From: an uncultured Clostridium sp.
GTDB taxonomy: Bacteria > Bacillota > Clostridia > Lachnospirales > Anaerotignaceae
NCBI GenBank assembly: GCA_947246775.1
Contig: CAMXTM010000019.1
Location: 1-14,102, forward strand
Length of the DNA: 14,102 nt
Direction of reading: 5' to 3'
The position numbers and the translations under genes are program-made. Shown piece after piece: positions 4,601 through 12,455 of this stretch; positions within the stretch are counted from its first letter, which is position 1, and every line of letters starts with the position of its first letter. The notes beneath the pieces were generated by a model that saw nothing but the letters and a program-made list of their open reading frames with translations, was not told the origin of the DNA and searched no databases.

Positions 4601-4631
4601 AAAAAGTAAAAAGACCTTGAGGGCGCTGCCC
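4601..4631 (-). terminator. Probable terminator of the TerD/AIM24-like operon
   Basis: On the minus strand, 22 bases past the stop at 4654, GGGC-AGC-GCCC (4621-4631) forms a short GC-rich stem. It is followed by TCAAGGTCTTTTTACTTTTT, ending in two T-runs. The stem is short, and the hairpin lies just upstream of the -35 region of the next promoter. Confidence 0.45.
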
Positions 4632-4653
4632 AGAGCAAAGAGTAACGCCTATC

Positions 4654-5358
4654 TTAATCAATACTAACGCTGATACCGCCTGCCCTTTCGTTTGGCTGCA
4701 CAATGACAGACACTCTTGCATTTCCTCCCCACTCAAAGCTATAGGATTCTCCAGAAGTCTGCCCGATAAACGTTTTCCAATTGACGTCCATTTTAATATC
4801 AGGGTCACAATATCCCTGTCCCAGCCAACAAACGACTGCATCAGGGTCAACAGAAATCGTATTCCCTGTAAACACATTGCTTAATACAATCGGGTTGCCA
4901 TCGACTAAAATAGCAACATAGGAATTTGCGCCCATTCCTGTCAAAGTTGAGGTAGCAAGTCCCTTTTGTGATACCACGCCCGAGCCAATAAATCGCACAT
5001 CATATTTACACTCTGGCGTAAAGGCAAGGATATTTTCGGATTCTATGGAAAGCACTTCTCCCTTTTCCAACTGATATACTACAATGTGCTGCCCATGATT
5101 GGCATAATACGTGACGCTATCGCCGTTTAACATGACTTTCATAAGTGGTAAATTTTCTCCTGTGACTCTACGCATAATCGAACCCATCAATGCTTGTCCT
5201 CTACTTTGCTGAGGACCAAGCAACAACTTTTCAAATTTATAGTTTTTATAGCCTGCATTTTCTCCGCAGATAAAACAACCTGCTTTTGCTATCAAAGTTT
5301 CATTTCCTGTACAAGTTACTTTTAAGGTCAATTCGTTTACGGTTTCAAATTTTAACAT
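4654..5358 (-). CDS. AIM24 / TIGR00266-like protein
   Basis: A 234-residue soluble beta-rich protein; AAGGAGGGG sits just upstream of the ATG at 5358. It has no signal peptide or membrane segment. The body shows the spaced glycine and beta-strand pattern of AIM24-type proteins, including AKAGCFICGENAG near residue 25, FIGSGVVSQKGLATSTLTGMGANSYVAILVDGNPIVLS around 123-160 and DAVVCWLGQG around 173-182. Proteins of this group are common in Firmicutes next to TerD-family genes, as here, 19 bases after the TerD-like gene. Their biochemical role is not established; the yeast namesake affects mitochondrial inner-membrane organisation. Joint action with TerD in a calcium- or membrane-linked stress response is inference from gene order. 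Confidence 0.8.
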   Translation of the reverse strand: MLKFETVNELTLKVTCTGNETLIAKAGCFICGENAGYKNYKFEKLLLGPQQSRGQALMGSIMRRVTGENLPLMKVMLNGDSVTYYANHGQHIVVYQLEKGEVLSIESENILAFTPECKYDVRFIGSGVVSQKGLATSTLTGMGANSYVAILVDGNPIVLSNVFTGNTISVDPDAVVCWLGQGYCDPDIKMDVNWKTFIGQTSGESYSFEWGGNARVSVIVQPNERAGGISVSID

Positions 5359-5377
5359 ATTTCCCCTCCTTACGCAT

Positions 5378-6214
5378 TTATACTACTTCAACACCATAAA
5401 AGGCACACACACCTGCTAAATCCTTTGCAATGCCATTGCCGATTGCATTGACTTTCCACTTGCCATTATAAAAATAGACTTCTGCCATCATCATAGAAAT
5501 AATACTTGTATCATAGTCTGTTATAGGAAAACTGACTAATTCACTTTGGTTTTGCTGCAATATTCTAACATAAGCGTCTTTTATCATGCCAAAATGTAAG
5601 CGGTTCTGTATTGCTTCGTTGATGGTTAGCACAAATACAATTTTTTTGACGGCACTGTGTAGTTTTGAAAAATCAATGCGAATTTTTTGCCTGTCAAGCG
5701 CTTGCTCTGTGGTTAGGACTGTACTTTTGTCTGGGCTTGTCGTCTGCCCATAAAATACAAACCAGTCGTCTCCTAATACTTTGTCATTTTCTCCCAGCAA
5801 AAACGCTGACGCATCAACATCACAACGCGTATCTTTTACATTCCAGCCAAAACATACCTCTATCTTGTCGCTGCTACCAATCGGCAATACCACTTTTTGC
5901 CCTTTTTGTATGCTTTTTTGTAGCTTGGGCATGGCTCTGTCAGTCGTAATGGTATTGCTCATGTTGCTGGGCTGTGCTGGCGTCCTGCTTTGGCTTTGAT
6001 ATAGAGTTTGGCTTGCATTTTGAGATGCACTTTGCTGTCTGTGTTGGCTCATCGCTTGCCTTTGATTGTTCATTTGATTGTTATAATTGTTGCGTGGCTG
6101 CATGACGCTTTTGATGTTGCTTTGATTTTTGACACTCTGTGCATCTGCTACATTAACAGATAATAATGTATTTTTGTTTTCCGCACCTTTTACTTTATTT
6201 TCTATCGTTATCAT
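5378..6214 (-). CDS. TerD-family stress protein with Gln/Asn-rich N-terminal extension
   Basis: A 278-residue protein; GGAGGG lies 7 bases before the ATG at 6214. Residues 98-278 are a full TerD domain: LQKSIQKGQKV (98-108), FGWN (122-125), CDVDASAFLLG with the acidic calcium-binding residues D132/D134 (131-141), DDWFVFY (149-155), RIDFSKL (179-185), FVLTINEA (194-201), FGMIKDAYVRI (208-218), AEVYFYNGKWKVNAIGNG (244-261). TerD proteins bind Ca2+ and belong to systems linked to tellurite, phage, colicin and other envelope stresses; the exact reaction is unknown. The first 97 residues are not part of the domain: they are low complexity, rich in Q, N and S (about 25-90). TerD proteins are usually near 190 residues, so this is an added disordered tail. 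It forms an operon with the AIM24-like gene. Confidence 0.9.
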   Translation of the reverse strand: MITIENKVKGAENKNTLLSVNVADAQSVKNQSNIKSVMQPRNNYNNQMNNQRQAMSQHRQQSASQNASQTLYQSQSRTPAQPSNMSNTITTDRAMPKLQKSIQKGQKVVLPIGSSDKIEVCFGWNVKDTRCDVDASAFLLGENDKVLGDDWFVFYGQTTSPDKSTVLTTEQALDRQKIRIDFSKLHSAVKKIVFVLTINEAIQNRLHFGMIKDAYVRILQQNQSELVSFPITDYDTSIISMMMAEVYFYNGKWKVNAIGNGIAKDLAGVCAFYGVEVV

Positions 6215-6341
6215 GCTATCCCTCCTCTCTTGAAAGACCTTTAATTGAAGAATTCTTAAGTTTTTTTAGAGTAATAATTGTTTCCATATATTTATTGTTG
6301 TTTAAAATAAATCTTATATATTCTATTAAATAATGAATTAA

Positions 6342-6370
6342 ATAAAGCAGGGCAACAAGTCCTGCTTTAT
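6342..6370 (-). terminator. Terminator of the three-gene unknown operon
   Basis: A perfect 10-bp stem (ATAAAGCAGG, 6342-6351, with CCTGCTTTAT, 6361-6370) and a 9-base loop lie 3 bases past the stop at 6374. On the minus strand the 3' arm ends in TTTAT followed by TTAATTC, a modest T-tract. The arms resemble those at 1963-1990 and 10594-10615. Confidence 0.72.
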
Positions 6371-6373
6371 CTA

Positions 6374-6955
6374 TTAATATGCAAATCCAGTATTTCTTTC
6401 ATTAAGTGTTTCTGCATCCTCTCTTCTCATTAAATATATAGTTAATTTAACTACAAAAAGATAATAGCCTATTTGATTTAACGATGCTATCCTATGTATT
6501 TTTCCATTTTTGATTCCATTCATAATCAGGTTTTTGCTAAATGTGTTCATTATTTCAAAATCAACAAACTTATCTATTAGCTTTCCATCTGAAATATACA
6601 TATAATCAATTACTTTATTTTTTTTAAGCTCTACTAAATTTCCCTCATAAATTTCTAAAGGCATTACTGGAACTAAAACTAATTTATTCTTCTGGTCAAT
6701 ATGACAGGAAGTTGATAATACTAAAGCCTCTAAATCAAATTTTTTCTGTTCTCCATTTTCATCGAAATAATAAAATGGAACTTCTGAGATAATATCCCCT
6801 TGAGATAATTCTAAAAGAGGTTTTAAAGTTAAATATTTAATTTGTTCTCCATTTTTTTCAAATTGTGCAATTGCCTCTTGTATACCTTCTTTTGTTTCCA
6901 TAGGAACAGAGGGTAAAATGCTATCCACAAATTCAATAAATTCTTTTATTAACAT
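6374..6955 (-). CDS. Unknown protein, third gene of the AT-rich operon
   Basis: A 193-residue protein with no signal peptide. Its ATG (6953-6955) overlaps the end of the preceding gene by 7 bases as ATGTTAA; the upstream AGGGGTG is about 14 bases away, so translational coupling is likely. Visible landmarks: an acidic helical N-terminus (1-45), LSQGDIISEVPFYYFDENGE (50-69), LVLSTSCHID (78-87) followed by a strand KLVLVPV (91-97), and a C-terminal block RIASLNQIGYYLFVVKLTIYLMRRED (155-180) whose hydrophobic core could be a buried or membrane-touching helix. The combination of a GDI-x-P motif, an LS-x-x-C motif and the RIASL-type C-terminus recalls uncharacterised accessory-region proteins that I know only from memory. 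The single Cys84 next to His85 is the obvious candidate functional residue. Function not known. Confidence 0.8.
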   Translation of the reverse strand: MLIKEFIEFVDSILPSVPMETKEGIQEAIAQFEKNGEQIKYLTLKPLLELSQGDIISEVPFYYFDENGEQKKFDLEALVLSTSCHIDQKNKLVLVPVMPLEIYEGNLVELKKNKVIDYMYISDGKLIDKFVDFEIMNTFSKNLIMNGIKNGKIHRIASLNQIGYYLFVVKLTIYLMRREDAETLNERNTGFAY

Positions 6956-7293
6956 ATATCGAAAAAATTCACCCCTGTATCTTTTGAAATCTTTTTAATA
7001 TAATTATTTATGCTTGCCTGTTCTTCTGGTGTTGCATCACGCATTTCTCCAAATAGTTCATTTGCTATTTTTTCCAATCTTGTTGATGAATTTGTTTTAT
7101 ATATATTATTAACATCAATTTTAAATGGATTTGTTAAATATTTATCATCATAGTATCTATGATTTGCTATTTGAATTTTATAGTTATCATTTATATTTAC
7201 AGGTATTGTACTATTTGCACTTATTGTTGAAAGAGCAAAACTTAAAAGGCAAGCTGTTCCAGAAATATTTCTTATAAAATTTTTTTGTTCCAT
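6949..7293 (-). CDS. Unknown small protein, second gene of the AT-rich operon
   Basis: A 114-residue protein; AAAGGAGA lies 9 bases upstream of the ATG at 7293, inside the end of the previous gene, whose stop is 2 bases away. Residues 12-27 form a mildly hydrophobic stretch that could be a weak signal or anchor, but there is no clear cleavage site. The C-terminal half (70-114) is helical and charged, with RLEKIANELFGEMRDATPEE (72-91) and a final TGVNFFDIC. That ending looks like a conserved tail of small partner proteins rather than random sequence. Size and position between two larger genes suggest a subunit or adaptor of a complex, by inference only. I do not recognise a family. Confidence 0.75.
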   Translation of the reverse strand: MEQKNFIRNISGTACLLSFALSTISANSTIPVNINDNYKIQIANHRYYDDKYLTNPFKIDVNNIYKTNSSTRLEKIANELFGEMRDATPEEQASINNYIKKISKDTGVNFFDIC

Positions 7294-7295
7294 AC

Positions 7296-8027
7296 TTAAT
7301 ACTCTCCTTTCTCAATCAATGTAGTAAGTTTATTATTAATGATATTTCCCATAGATTCAATCAATTTATTAAGCATACTACCATTTGATGTATAATTTGG
7401 ATTAGTATTGAAACTATATCTGTCATTAATGTCAATAATTGCACCAATTAATTCTGCAACTTGGTCTTTTGCATTTAATGCTCCTGCTTCAGTTGCAATA
7501 ACTCCATTTTTAAATAATCTTGCATTTTGAAGCATTATATTTACAAATAAGTTTTCATCTTCAACAAATGTATATCTGATATTTATATCATAAAGATTTT
7601 TAATTTTTTTAGTATTTAGAAGATTTTCTGATATTTTTCTAGTACCTTCTTGCTCTACTTCATCATAAATGATGTTTGAAACAAGACCGATATACTCATA
7701 AGTATTTCCAGTAAGAATATTTAAAAATTCAAATACTTTAGTCATTCGATTAGTAATATAATCTGAACATGCTTTCCAATCTCTTTCAAATCCTGCATCA
7801 TAGTGAACTTCAAAAGTTGCTGCTATTGGGGATATGCTCAACTGTGCATGCTCATTCCTTGTTTTAATAAGAATTCTTGGAATTTCAAATGGAGCTTCAT
7901 CAGGAATAGGCAAAACAGTTGCTGCATTAAAATATTCTTTTAATATATCTTCATTATTATAATATACTTTTTTAATTCCTTCTATTTTTTTATAGGTAAC
8001 AGTAATAGATGTTCCTTGTATTAACAT
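7296..8027 (-). CDS. Unknown protein, first gene of the AT-rich operon (TIGR04255-like?)
   Basis: A 243-residue protein. The start at 8027 is chosen because GGAGG is 8 bases upstream; an in-frame TTG five codons earlier lies within that site. There is no signal peptide or membrane span. The N-terminal third alternates beta strands with a Pro-rich turn (PIPDEAPFEIPRILI, 40-54) and a strand pair around AQLSISPIAATFEVHYD (61-77). Then comes a helix (about 80-105) with DYITNRMTKVFEFL, a mixed middle, and a C-terminal helix rich in N and I. The layout recalls TIGR04255, a sporadically distributed family of unknown function, but I see no decisive motif. It opens a compact operon (2-base gap, then a 7-base overlap), so the three products probably work together. 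Confidence 0.8.
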   Translation of the reverse strand: MLIQGTSITVTYKKIEGIKKVYYNNEDILKEYFNAATVLPIPDEAPFEIPRILIKTRNEHAQLSISPIAATFEVHYDAGFERDWKACSDYITNRMTKVFEFLNILTGNTYEYIGLVSNIIYDEVEQEGTRKISENLLNTKKIKNLYDINIRYTFVEDENLFVNIMLQNARLFKNGVIATEAGALNAKDQVAELIGAIIDINDRYSFNTNPNYTSNGSMLNKLIESMGNIINNKLTTLIEKGEY

Positions 8028-8321
8028 TCTAAATTCCTCCAAATCAATTAAATATGGCTATATAGTATTATAACATAAAATAAGCCTATTTTGTTCATAA
8101 ATTTATATCATTTTATAAAATCTTGTACTACTTTGGCTTTTTTTATATTTCACTTTCGCTTATATCAAAATGTTATCATTCAATAATTTCTATTTTTACT
8201 GAGTCTATACAATACTTATTTTGCACATAATTTCAAATTTTATTACATATTATTTCTACTCTTGTATTTGTCAGGTTTAATATTAAAATATTCAAATTGA
8301 TTGTAATATAGAAATCTGGCA
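8028..8321. other. AT-rich intergenic region upstream of the unknown operon
   Basis: About 290 bases between the rlmD-like stop and the first unknown gene. It holds the candidate -10 box at 8067-8072. I see no reading frame with a ribosome binding site, no RNA gene and no convincing hairpin terminator for the rlmD-like gene. Confidence 0.6.
8067..8072 (-). promoter_or_regulatory. Candidate -10 box of the three-gene unknown operon
   Basis: TATAAT on the minus strand, preceded by ATGT, lies 39 bases before the ATG at 8027. The matching -35 region is poor: only a GAACAA-like sequence at roughly 17-19 bases. Confidence 0.5.
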
Positions 8322-9674
8322 TTACTTACGGCAATAAACAACTGTCTCAACGTGCACTGTTCTAGGGAACTGGTTGACCATTTTTACCCGTTTGACTTGG
8401 TAGCCATTTTGCTGGAAAATTTGCAAATCTCTAGCAAGGGAAGTCGGTTTACACGAAACGTAAACCATTTCAGGCGCGCCAAAGGCAATAATTTTATCAA
8501 TCGCCTTTGGGTGTATGCCATCTCTAGGCGGGTCAAGGATAATCAAATCTGGTTTCTCCTGCAACTCCTCTATTTTTTGCAGCACATCGCCCGCAATAAA
8601 TTCACAATTTGACAAGCCATTTCTTTGTGCGTTTTCCTTTGCCGCAACAATGGCTTCCTCTACCAATTCGATGCCGATGACCTTTTTTGATTTTCCAGCC
8701 ATAATTTGGCTAATCGTGCCTGTGCCGCAGTACAAATCAAACACAACTTTATTTTTGACTTCTCCAGCAAATTCCTTTACAATTTCGTACAATTTTTCTG
8801 CACCTTTGGTATTGGTTTGGAAAAAGGAAAAGGCGGACACTTTAAACTCTAAATCAAACAGTTTTTCTATAAAATAATTGTTGCCATAAAGGATATCCGT
8901 TTGGTCACTCTGCACCACGTCTGCTAGTCCATCATTTTTAGTATGCAGAATACCACATAATTTCCCTTGTAATTCCAAATCAAGCAAGGCATTTTTGTAT
9001 TCTTCTAAGGAAAACGGAATTTCTGATGTTGTCACCAAATTGACTAAAATTTCTCCTGTTGCTTCGCCTTTTCTGACGACTAAGTGCCGCAAAATGCCCT
9101 CATGTCGTGACTTGTGATAAAAAGGGATATTTCTAGTTTGAAAAAAGTGCAATACAGCATCAATGATTTTTAAAAAATCTGCATCTACAATATTGCAATT
9201 TGTGAGCGTCACGACTTCATAATAACTCTGTCTTTTTCTCATGCCTAACGCTAAATTGCCGCCTTTTTGCTCATCTCCAAAGGAAAACTCGCATTTGTTG
9301 CGATATGTCTTTTGTTTTGGGGAAGATACAATGCCCTCCCAAGATTCCACTTCTATCCCAGCCTGCTCCAACAACTGCATCACTTGTTTTTGTTTCATGT
9401 CATTTTCCGCTTCTATGGTCATATTTTGATAAGTACAGCCGCCACACTGTAAAAAATGGCTACACTCTGACGCCTGTTCAAAAGGAGATTGCTGTAATAC
9501 TTCTTCTAGGCAAGCTTCTATGCCGCTGCTGCGCTTTTTTGTAATGCGTGCTAATACTTGCTGCTTAGGCAAAACGTTTTTGACAATGACCTTTTGTCCC
9601 TCTATATAGCCGATTCCCTTGTTGGGAAACGTAACTTGTTCTATGTTTACTACTATTTTATCATTTTTTTTCAT
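8322..9674 (-). CDS. rlmD: 23S rRNA (uracil-5-)-methyltransferase, RlmD/RumA type
   Basis: A 450-residue SAM-dependent enzyme that methylates C5 of a uridine in 23S rRNA (U1939 in E. coli numbering; some Gram-positive homologues, RlmCD, modify two sites). GGAGG lies 7 bases before the ATG at 9674. Residues 1-60 form a TRAM RNA-binding domain. The 4Fe-4S ligands include C71, C77 and C80 (CSHFLQCGGC) with a further Cys in LTNCNIVD. The methyltransferase core shows the SAM loop DLYCGTGT (313-320), DPPRDG (381-386), the catalytic nucleophile Cys408 in VSCKPTSLARDL and the general base Glu443 in HVETVVYC. Length is normal and all key residues are present. It is transcribed away from the S1-domain gene; its own promoter is not clear. 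Confidence 0.94.
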   Translation of the reverse strand: MKKNDKIVVNIEQVTFPNKGIGYIEGQKVIVKNVLPKQQVLARITKKRSSGIEACLEEVLQQSPFEQASECSHFLQCGGCTYQNMTIEAENDMKQKQVMQLLEQAGIEVESWEGIVSSPKQKTYRNKCEFSFGDEQKGGNLALGMRKRQSYYEVVTLTNCNIVDADFLKIIDAVLHFFQTRNIPFYHKSRHEGILRHLVVRKGEATGEILVNLVTTSEIPFSLEEYKNALLDLELQGKLCGILHTKNDGLADVVQSDQTDILYGNNYFIEKLFDLEFKVSAFSFFQTNTKGAEKLYEIVKEFAGEVKNKVVFDLYCGTGTISQIMAGKSKKVIGIELVEEAIVAAKENAQRNGLSNCEFIAGDVLQKIEELQEKPDLIILDPPRDGIHPKAIDKIIAFGAPEMVYVSCKPTSLARDLQIFQQNGYQVKRVKMVNQFPRTVHVETVVYCRK

Positions 9675-10876: not shown

Positions 10877-11209
10877 TTACAAAGTTTTTGCATCGCTCCA
10901 CAGATGGTCTAGTCCGTAAAACTCCCTTTGCTCCTTATTAAACAAATGCACCAACACATTGCCAAAGTCCAACAATATCCATGTTGCTACAGTATATCCC
11001 TCTGAATGATGTAATTTTACGCCTGCCTTAAACAATTTTTGTTCTACTTCATCTGCCATTGCTCTTAAATGGTTTACATTATTTCCGCTTGCAATAATAA
11101 AATAATCCGTAATATTAGAGATTCCTCTCAAATCCAATGCTTTTACATCTTCTGCCATTTTATCCTCTAATGCTTCTTGCGCTATTTTTACAACTTCGAT
11201 TGCTTCCAC
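10877..11209 (-). CDS. rsfS: Ribosomal silencing factor RsfS
   Basis: A 110-residue protein of the RsfS/YbeB/Iojap family, which binds ribosomal protein uL14 on the 50S subunit and blocks joining with 30S when nutrients are short. It starts with GTG at 11209, 6 bases after AAAGGAGGT. Family hallmarks are DVKALDLRGISNITDYFIIASGNNVNHLRAMADEV (about 21-55), the HHSEGY segment (67-72), WILLDFGNVLVHLF (77-90) and REFYGLDHLW (94-103). Length is normal. It is the last gene of the obg operon, 13 bases after the nadD-yqeK fusion, a conserved Firmicutes order. No good T-tailed terminator follows at once; the palindromes at 10718-10803 may serve. Confidence 0.95.
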   Translation of the reverse strand: MEAIEVVKIAQEALEDKMAEDVKALDLRGISNITDYFIIASGNNVNHLRAMADEVEQKLFKAGVKLHHSEGYTVATWILLDFGNVLVHLFNKEQREFYGLDHLWSDAKTL

Positions 11210-11222
11210 AATACGACCTCCT

Positions 11223-12455
11223 TTATTTATTTTTAAAATATTCTAATGCTTCTTGGGACAGCGGGTGCAGTTTCATTTTTCGTTCCTTTACATAAGCAAT
11301 AGTATGCTCTAGTGTATATTTCATCGCCATATCTAGGTCTAAATAGGACAATCTTCTTGCTTCATCTAGTCCATCAAAATTTGCCCGATTTGGTTCAATA
11401 TAGTCCGCCAAAAATATAATTTTTTCTAAAAGGCTCATTTCTTTTCTTCCCGTTGTGTGATACCTTATGGCATTTAAAATATCTTCATCGTCTACTAAAT
11501 ATTCTCTTTTTGCAACTTCCGCGCCCAAAAATGGGTGAATTAAATCCTTTTGCTCTTTTAAAACATCATCTAGTTTGACATGATATTCTTTACATAAACG
11601 TATTTTTAAATCATTTGGATAGTTTTTAGCGCAGTCGTGCAAAAGTCCCGCAACTTCTGCTTTCTTTTTATCCTGCGCTGTACCATAAATTTCTGCTAAT
11701 TTCATTGCTTCCTCTGCGACTCCCATGGTATGAATATATCTTTTTACAGAAAGTGCTGATTGCAATTTTTCTTTCATTACATCTGTTGTCAACATAAACT
11801 TTACCTCTTTTTCTGTACTATTTTCATATAAGCCAAATTTATAAATATAGTCCTCTACTTCTTGAGGCAAAAGATATTTGATGGGTCTACCGTTTTGCAC
11901 CCTTTGGCGAATGTCAGATGAGGATATTTCCAGTCCAGGTACTTCCATATAGTGTATTCTACTAGCGAATTTATCCCTAATTTCTTCAATTTCGTCAAAC
12001 AGCTTATTTTTACCATAGCCTGAACGTGTCACCGCCACAAAATCACACATGGTCAGCAATTTTTCTGCATTTTTCCATGTAAAAATTTGGTGTATGGCAT
12101 CTGCTCCCGTAATAAAATATAAACGGGCGTCAGGGCGACAGATTCTTTTTAATTCTTCAATCGTATCTATGGTATAGGTTTGTCCTGGACGCTCAATCTC
12201 AATACGGGATACGTCAAAATTTTCATTTCTCATGGTTGCTAATACGGTCATCAAATATCTATGCTCATGATGGGTTACAACTTTATCTGCCTTGTGGGCA
12301 GGATTGCCTGTGGGCATAAATATCACTTTATCTACTTTAAAACGATGTCGGACTGCGTCTGCTGTTGCTAAGTGACCATAGTGTATTGGGTCAAATGTTC
12401 CTCCCATGATTGCAATACTTTTACAATTTTTAAAATTTTCTATACTACTTCTCAT
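11223..12455 (-). CDS. nadD: Fused nicotinate-mononucleotide adenylyltransferase (NadD) and HD-domain Ap4A hydrolase (YqeK)
   Basis: A 410-residue two-domain protein. Residues 13-211 are NadD, which adenylates nicotinate mononucleotide to deamido-NAD: GGTFDPIHYGH (18-28) binds ATP, with FMPTGNPAHK (46-55), FITGADA (114-120), and ISSSDIR (177-183) as the C-terminal nucleotide motif. Residues 221-410 are YqeK, an HD-domain metal-dependent hydrolase that splits Ap4A symmetrically: H242, the HD pair H273-D274 in LLHDCAK, H333 in RYHTTG and D351 in FLADYIEPNR. In B. subtilis these are separate adjacent genes; here there is no stop between them, only a short linker (212-220). Fusion of the two is known in some Mollicutes and other Firmicutes (from memory). 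A GGAAAGAG site precedes the ATG at 12455. An internal ribosome binding site and ATG lie exactly at the YqeK start. Confidence 0.92.
   Translation of the reverse strand: MRSSIENFKNCKSIAIMGGTFDPIHYGHLATADAVRHRFKVDKVIFMPTGNPAHKADKVVTHHEHRYLMTVLATMRNENFDVSRIEIERPGQTYTIDTIEELKRICRPDARLYFITGADAIHQIFTWKNAEKLLTMCDFVAVTRSGYGKNKLFDEIEEIRDKFASRIHYMEVPGLEISSSDIRQRVQNGRPIKYLLPQEVEDYIYKFGLYENSTEKEVKFMLTTDVMKEKLQSALSVKRYIHTMGVAEEAMKLAEIYGTAQDKKKAEVAGLLHDCAKNYPNDLKIRLCKEYHVKLDDVLKEQKDLIHPFLGAEVAKREYLVDDEDILNAIRYHTTGRKEMSLLEKIIFLADYIEPNRANFDGLDEARRLSYLDLDMAMKYTLEHTIAYVKERKMKLHPLSQEALEYFKNK
11793..11808 (-). promoter_or_regulatory. yqeK: Internal ribosome binding site and ATG at the YqeK domain start
   Basis: Inside the fusion gene, minus-strand AGAGGT (11803-11808) is followed after 7 bases by ATG (11793-11795, Met221), in frame and at the natural start of YqeK (MLTTDVMKEK). 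Translation from here would give a free 190-residue YqeK, the usual length of that protein. Confidence 0.55.

Follow-up and report, generated by a model that had tools for sequence, protein, structure and literature searches.

A mobile three-gene module with an exchangeable third gene, probably a new kind of toxin switch, in an uncultured Clostridium sp.

The stretch of DNA analysed here (the window; 14,102 nucleotides of contig CAMXTM010000019.1, assembly GCA_947246775.1) comes from an uncultured Clostridium sp. and contains three consecutive minus-strand genes, P1, P2 and P3, which probably constitute a new type of tripartite toxin switch found on phages and other mobile DNA. The best explanation, to which a probability of about 0.6 was assigned, is a mobile three-component toxin-antitoxin (TA)-like module, probably of the abortive-infection type, with an exchangeable slot for the effector. 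This role was preferred because P3 is predicted to adopt a toxin fold and because PIN or HEPN genes replace it in related operons. An earlier reading of the DNA without database searches (the sequence-only reading) had proposed a defence or TA-like module; its dedicated, acquired nature was supported by gene order, GC content and absence from congeners, while the role itself is the reading that appears to fit best.

P1 (243 amino acids, 7296-8027, with an ATG start at 8027 preceded by GGAGGA) is followed after a gap of 2 bases by P2 (114 amino acids, 6949-7293), and the stop of P2 overlaps the start of P3, the predicted effector (193 amino acids, 6374-6955), in the 7 bases ATGTTAA at 6949-6955 on the same strand. 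The gap, the overlap and the gene lengths were exactly as the sequence-only reading gave them, and the family-like motifs that it quoted are present in the translations; the final C of TGVNFFDIC in P2 is a consequence of the ATGTTAA overlap. The genes had been called unrecognised, and none reached a Pfam or NCBIfam cut-off: P1 and P3 gave no match at an expectation value (E) up to 0.1, and all matches of P2 were at 0.046 or weaker. Matches to ordinary metabolic families, which had been expected to argue against a dedicated system, were found for none of the three proteins in these libraries.

Where the first gene belongs to the same or an equivalent family, PIN or HEPN genes can take the third place instead of P3. 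The third gene was judged at 28 of 29 distinct P1-family loci, the one set aside being L015, where gene 1 is cut by the contig end; L036, a 17-residue match, had been removed before the 29 were counted. L002 was counted with L023, L022 with L012, and L025 and L026 with Pseudomonas phage Dobby; second copies (L001, L027-L035, L037, L038, L059-L064) were counted once. A P3-type gene was present at 17 of the 28 loci (the window, L004-L013, L023, L024, L051, L052, L056 and L065), a share biased upwards by the P1 profile, which derives from close relatives of the window. L065 was labelled P3-type by way of the group L098, L065 and L101 (hhalign to P3 96.1%, E 2.9e-9), and L056 by an hmmsearch match at 8.2e-4. 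PIN genes took the third place at two loci, above the Pfam cut-off in L019 and, as two fragments that both fall just short of it, in L053. The PIN gene of L053 (7579-8000) is split into two frames, each of which matches one end of PF01850.

Seven further operons headed by a TIGR04255 gene were read (L003, L096, L097, L098, L099, L100 and L101), among them those of phage Dobby (L003) and of plasmids from Thermus (L099), Crinalium (L100) and Methylocystis (L101). The family was called above the model cut-off at five of these loci and by name in the records of L099 and L100. The third gene was P3-type in three of the seven (L003, L098 and L101) and HEPN in two, above the cut-off in L099 and below it, at 0.008, in L097. 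L003 and L101 were found by way of the third gene; the five loci reached through gene 1 comprise one P3-type gene, two HEPN genes and two without assignment. Dobby links the two kinds of operon: its P3 was recovered with the P3 of the window alone (2e-6), and the first gene of this phage matches TIGR04255 at 2.3e-23. The Dobby unit is flanked by the integrase and portal genes; the excerpt of PMC9122126 describes the cos-proximal region between gpA and gpQ of E. coli P2-like phages as an anti-phage hotspot. In the Dobby record (MK034952.1) the TIGR04255 frame is open over 1090-1854, of which GenBank annotates only 1483-1854. The HEPN gene of L099, on Thermus brockianus plasmid pTB1 (4803-5195; PF05168 at 4.2e-6), is missing from the PLSDB gene table, and VapC and Cas6 genes are found near it. 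An abortive infection family protein is encoded in the neighbourhood of L101.

P1 itself was not matched by the TIGR04255 model at E up to 1, and its relative in L021 matched at 1.9e-4, which is below the cut-off. Profile comparison of P1 with TIGR04255 gave 0.6%, and the P1 core scored no better than reversed controls. The distant P1 group gave 0.0059 against TIGR04255 profiles, slightly above the reversed controls (0.14 and 0.086).

The order P1-P2-P3 is fixed in distant hosts and in a phage, as the sequence-only reading had suggested checking. When genomes were scanned with the P1 alignment, 18 loci were obtained, and P3 was two genes downstream of P1 in ten of them (L004-L013). The same order was present in Leptospira phage LnoZ_CZ214, in the viral contig L024 and in genomes G027 and G164, and operons of this order were found in Firmicutes. 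At 18 loci with a P3-type gene the intergenic distances lay between -20 and +10; the second and third genes overlapped by the same 7 bases in 8 of the 17 loci other than the window (L004-L009, L024 and L051). Searches driven by P3, one of them with the third gene of L098, gave seven independent loci besides the window in a tally that leaves out genomes chosen for carrying P1: the Leptospira phage, the Dobby-type Pseudomonas phage, L024, G027, G164, G149 and the Methylocystis plasmid L101. In six of these seven the second gene upstream of P3 belonged to the P1 or the TIGR04255 family. The exception, G149 (L058), encodes a P3 of 164 amino acids that is devoid of the usual C-terminal part, with no P1 or P2-sized gene upstream.

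The composition and distribution of the module agree with acquired DNA. Its GC content is 26.2%, against 37.4% for the window minus 4601-8337, in agreement with the AT-richness noted earlier; none of 457 placements of equal length in the rest of the window fell below 34.5%. At all 18 loci measured the module was lower in GC than its flanks, by 1 to 20 points, and this was also the case at loci with flanks of 54-61% GC. With the genome at the centre of each tally included in it, P1 was present in 2 of 60 relatives, in 8 of 398 genomes from the phylum (a single 17-residue match among them) and in 2 of 397 from another family, and P3 in 2 of 60 relatives and 3 of 398 phylum genomes. Both were missing from all four congeners. 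In two of these, G001 and G002, the segment 366-4603 of the window is inverted and directly adjoins rlmD, and the stretch 4604-8337, comprising an AIM24-like gene, TerD and the module, is absent beside rlmD. This inversion together with the missing genes places a rearrangement breakpoint at the island. G003 and G004 showed no match to the window left of rlmD within the stretch taken. The fixed order in distant hosts and a phage, the low GC content and the absence from congeners thus support an acquired, mobile and dedicated unit.

The surroundings of the module at other loci were also inspected. Phage tail, lysis or integrase genes, recognised by eye, were found beside it in L012 (also present as the IMG/VR contig L022), L024 and L052, and mobilisation-like genes, again by eye, near it in L006 and L051. 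By the same means, methyltransferase and endonuclease-like genes were seen around L010, and a neighbour in L013 is similar to 'helicase-related' plasmid proteins. A tally of flanking proteins, which covered 106 of 118 proteins because twelve from L023 were left out, had the defence models DrmD, DrmA, HEC-01 and type II restriction-modification among the first 25 of 142 families. Nearly all of these families rest on one protein each, and the defence models are only suggestive, as the matched protein is not specified and several models may hit one helicase. The large neighbour in L011 was considered as a defence gene and rejected, being a subtilisin-like protease. Two further neighbours were noted: in the Leptospira phage, a radical SAM cluster for the maturation of His-Xaa-Ser peptides (HxsA, D, B, C; L002, 5627-8936), which immediately follows the module on its downstream side, and a gene resembling AbiEii-type nucleotidyltransferases (by eye; L055, 7176-7679) beside the P1-family operon.

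Residues 48-179 of P3, approximately, are predicted to form the SH3-like barrel of MazF, CcdB and Kid, with an extra helical region at the N-terminus. The predicted local distance difference test (pLDDT) values of the model are 86-96 over most of residues 41-170. Conserved residues are QGD (52-54) and Cys84. P3 had 193 homologues in the protein database at E up to 0.001, query included, and matched PHROG 4575, a family of unknown function, at 4.9e-27 over residues 6-181. P1 had 156 homologues on the same terms and matched PHROG 22817, likewise of unknown function, at 2.6e-34 over residues 3-243; its predicted model is a confident alpha/beta structure to which no fold was assigned. Among the best 120 homologues listed for each of P1 and P3, the few that bear a name have a hypothetical or uninformative one. 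P1 was also considered as the Lamassu LmuB ATPase; this was rejected, as the match was weak and partial (0.0013, 16.7 bits, residues 49-101) and no Pfam ATPase was matched.

Comparison of 17 P2 sequences revealed a common, moderately hydrophobic N-terminal segment, which is weak in L005, L024 and L026, and a variable middle. The C-terminal tail LFG-MRDAT-E...TG-NFFD is kept in most P3-type operons. The P2 of the PIN-type operon L053 has kept the N-terminal segment and has a different tail, and from this one case it may be guessed that P2 is an adaptor, with the N-terminus directed to gene 1 and the C-terminus to the effector.

These features can be combined as follows. P3 would be an effector on the MazF/CcdB fold that arrests growth through an attack on RNA or on some other core target. 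P1 would be the constant sensor or antitoxin scaffold, and P2 a small adaptor through which P3 is held in an inactive complex with P1. P3 would be set free when the module is lost or a phage signal arrives, and the benefit would lie in defence or in maintenance of the element. We infer that the module, whose three positions are all taken by unassigned families, works like a TA or abortive-infection unit, a kind already known.

The MazF/PemK operon has two genes, with an AbrB- or RHH-type antitoxin upstream. Like the MazF/PemK/Kid and CcdB toxins, which share the fold predicted for P3, the module consists of small genes that overlap, and the toxin-like one comes at the end. It differs from MazF and CcdB in the third gene, which has no sequence match to them, a QGD...Cys signature of its own and the extra N-terminal region, and in being a three-gene operon with two partner genes outside the recognised antitoxin families. 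With type II-like TA modules in general it shares compact, co-oriented, overlapping small genes, mobility and sporadic distribution. In toxin-swapping TA networks one constant partner is reportedly joined to different toxins, with experimental validation; the protein families there are said to differ from those here, and the TA-like role of the present module is a prediction. Such type II networks are described in the excerpt of PMC10440598. TIGR04255 (NCBIfam 'sporadTIGR04255', for which no function is given) is similar in length to P1 and heads an equivalent three-gene operon. The matches of P1 and P3 to PHROG 22817 and PHROG 4575 (PHROGs v4) are nearly full-length, and the library gives neither a function nor an operon link. 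No paper in the literature searched mentioned TIGR04255, and the matches listed contained no description of the module.

Several observations weigh against the TA-like reading. Most loci were retrieved through P1, so that the co-occurrence is partly a matter of selection. In the P3 model, residues 81-90, including Cys84, are weak (pLDDT 64), and the first 40 residues have a pLDDT of about 50. By sequence, P3 did not match PF02452, gave 0.3% by hhalign against 29 MazF proteins of relatives, and among solved chains had its best match, at E 0.14, in an unrelated antigen. By motif register, the catalytic Arg and Thr of MazF appear not to be conserved in P3, which therefore may not be an RNase. No AbrB- or RHH-type or other DNA-binding antitoxin family was recognised in P1 or P2 with Pfam and NCBIfam. 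The third genes of a six-member group (L017, L018, L020, L021, L055 and L057) are HEPN-like by eye only: hhalign to HEPN-type genes gave 0.7%, the best Pfam HEPN match was 0.041, and no solved relative was found. That of L054 is likewise HEPN-like only by eye, without a Pfam match. L016 in the P1 family and L096 and L100 behind TIGR04255 have third genes without family assignment. In L014 the third gene (11053-11607) resembles retropepsin-like aspartyl proteases (PF13975 at 2.5e-4, below the cut-off) and matches the PADLOC candidate PDC-M08B at 5.1e-7; a protease would be an unusual effector. A mutS-like gene comes after it.

The main rival, considerably less probable than the TA-like reading, is a defence or exclusion system of another kind, in which P1 or P2 activates P3 upon infection, P3 is harmless alone and all three genes are needed. 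A precedent is DS-5, a validated system of a PIN protein and a partner, for which the excerpt of PMC13092281 states that both genes are needed and that it is likely not a TA system. The conserved residues of P3 differ from those of MazF, so that basal activity may be absent, and carriage by phages and prophages, partly judged by eye, would suit such a system as well. However, an effector in need of restraint is suggested by the toxin-type folds found in the third slot, and the lone, partnerless P3 in L058, which has decayed (n=1), points the same way. A set of genes for phage or element fitness (a moron) outside defence, acting for example on lysogeny or host control and with an incidental toxin-like fold, is improbable. 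Its occurrence in phages LnoZ_CZ214 and Dobby and the phage structural and lysis genes seen by eye at L012, L024 and L052 would agree with it, but defence-type genes also stand beside the copy of L013 (helicase-related) and beside the TIGR04255 operons of L101 (abortive infection) and L099 (VapC and Cas6). More improbable still is an arrangement in which the effector role falls to gene 1 and P3 serves for sensing or inhibition, as an SH3-like domain with a borrowed MazF fold, since P3 is replaced by PIN and HEPN genes, not by antitoxin families, and P1 belongs to no recognised catalytic family. Nothing was found in favour of an ordinary metabolic or housekeeping operon, and the sporadic distribution, the low GC content and the lack of any match to a metabolic family make it very remote.

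If the TA-like reading is extended to all these operons, they may form a large and so far undescribed superfamily of immune or addiction modules with three genes each: a constant P1 or TIGR04255 protein, a fast-evolving adaptor matched to gene 1 at its N-terminus and to the effector at its C-terminus, and unrelated effectors in the third slot; this extension is tentative and falls a little short of even odds. The slot would be filled by a MazF-fold family with QGD...Ser/Thr-x-x-Cys, by PIN and HEPN nucleases and possibly by an aspartyl protease, and P3 would be a new class of effector on the MazF fold. The reading predicts an effector with this fold and without MazF sequence, and offers a testable function for the orphan families TIGR04255, PHROG 22817 and PHROG 4575 together. 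It also predicts a rule, namely that gene 1 marks the locus and the effector is encoded two genes further on, which could reveal further toxin types; if the rule of the exchangeable slot holds generally, the superfamily would be new and sizeable.

Upstream of P1, a TATAAT on the minus strand (8067-8072 in plus-strand coordinates) is a candidate -10 box without a recognised -35. The sequence is present as the sequence-only reading had it, but the promoter scan did not list a sigma-70-like site there, and the 13 promoter-like sites in the region were no excess over the 17.5 in shuffles. The hairpin reported after the operon is real: the arms (6339-6351 and 6361-6373) are 92% complementary around a loop of 9 nucleotides and may form a weak terminator 3' of P3. 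It was not listed by the terminator scan, which has a loop limit of 8 and needs a T run. The gene adjoining the module on one side was correctly named as terD (PF02342, 7e-48), with the AIM24-like gene (PF01987, 1.2e-19) beyond it on the same side, and the rlmD-like gene is the neighbour on the other side.
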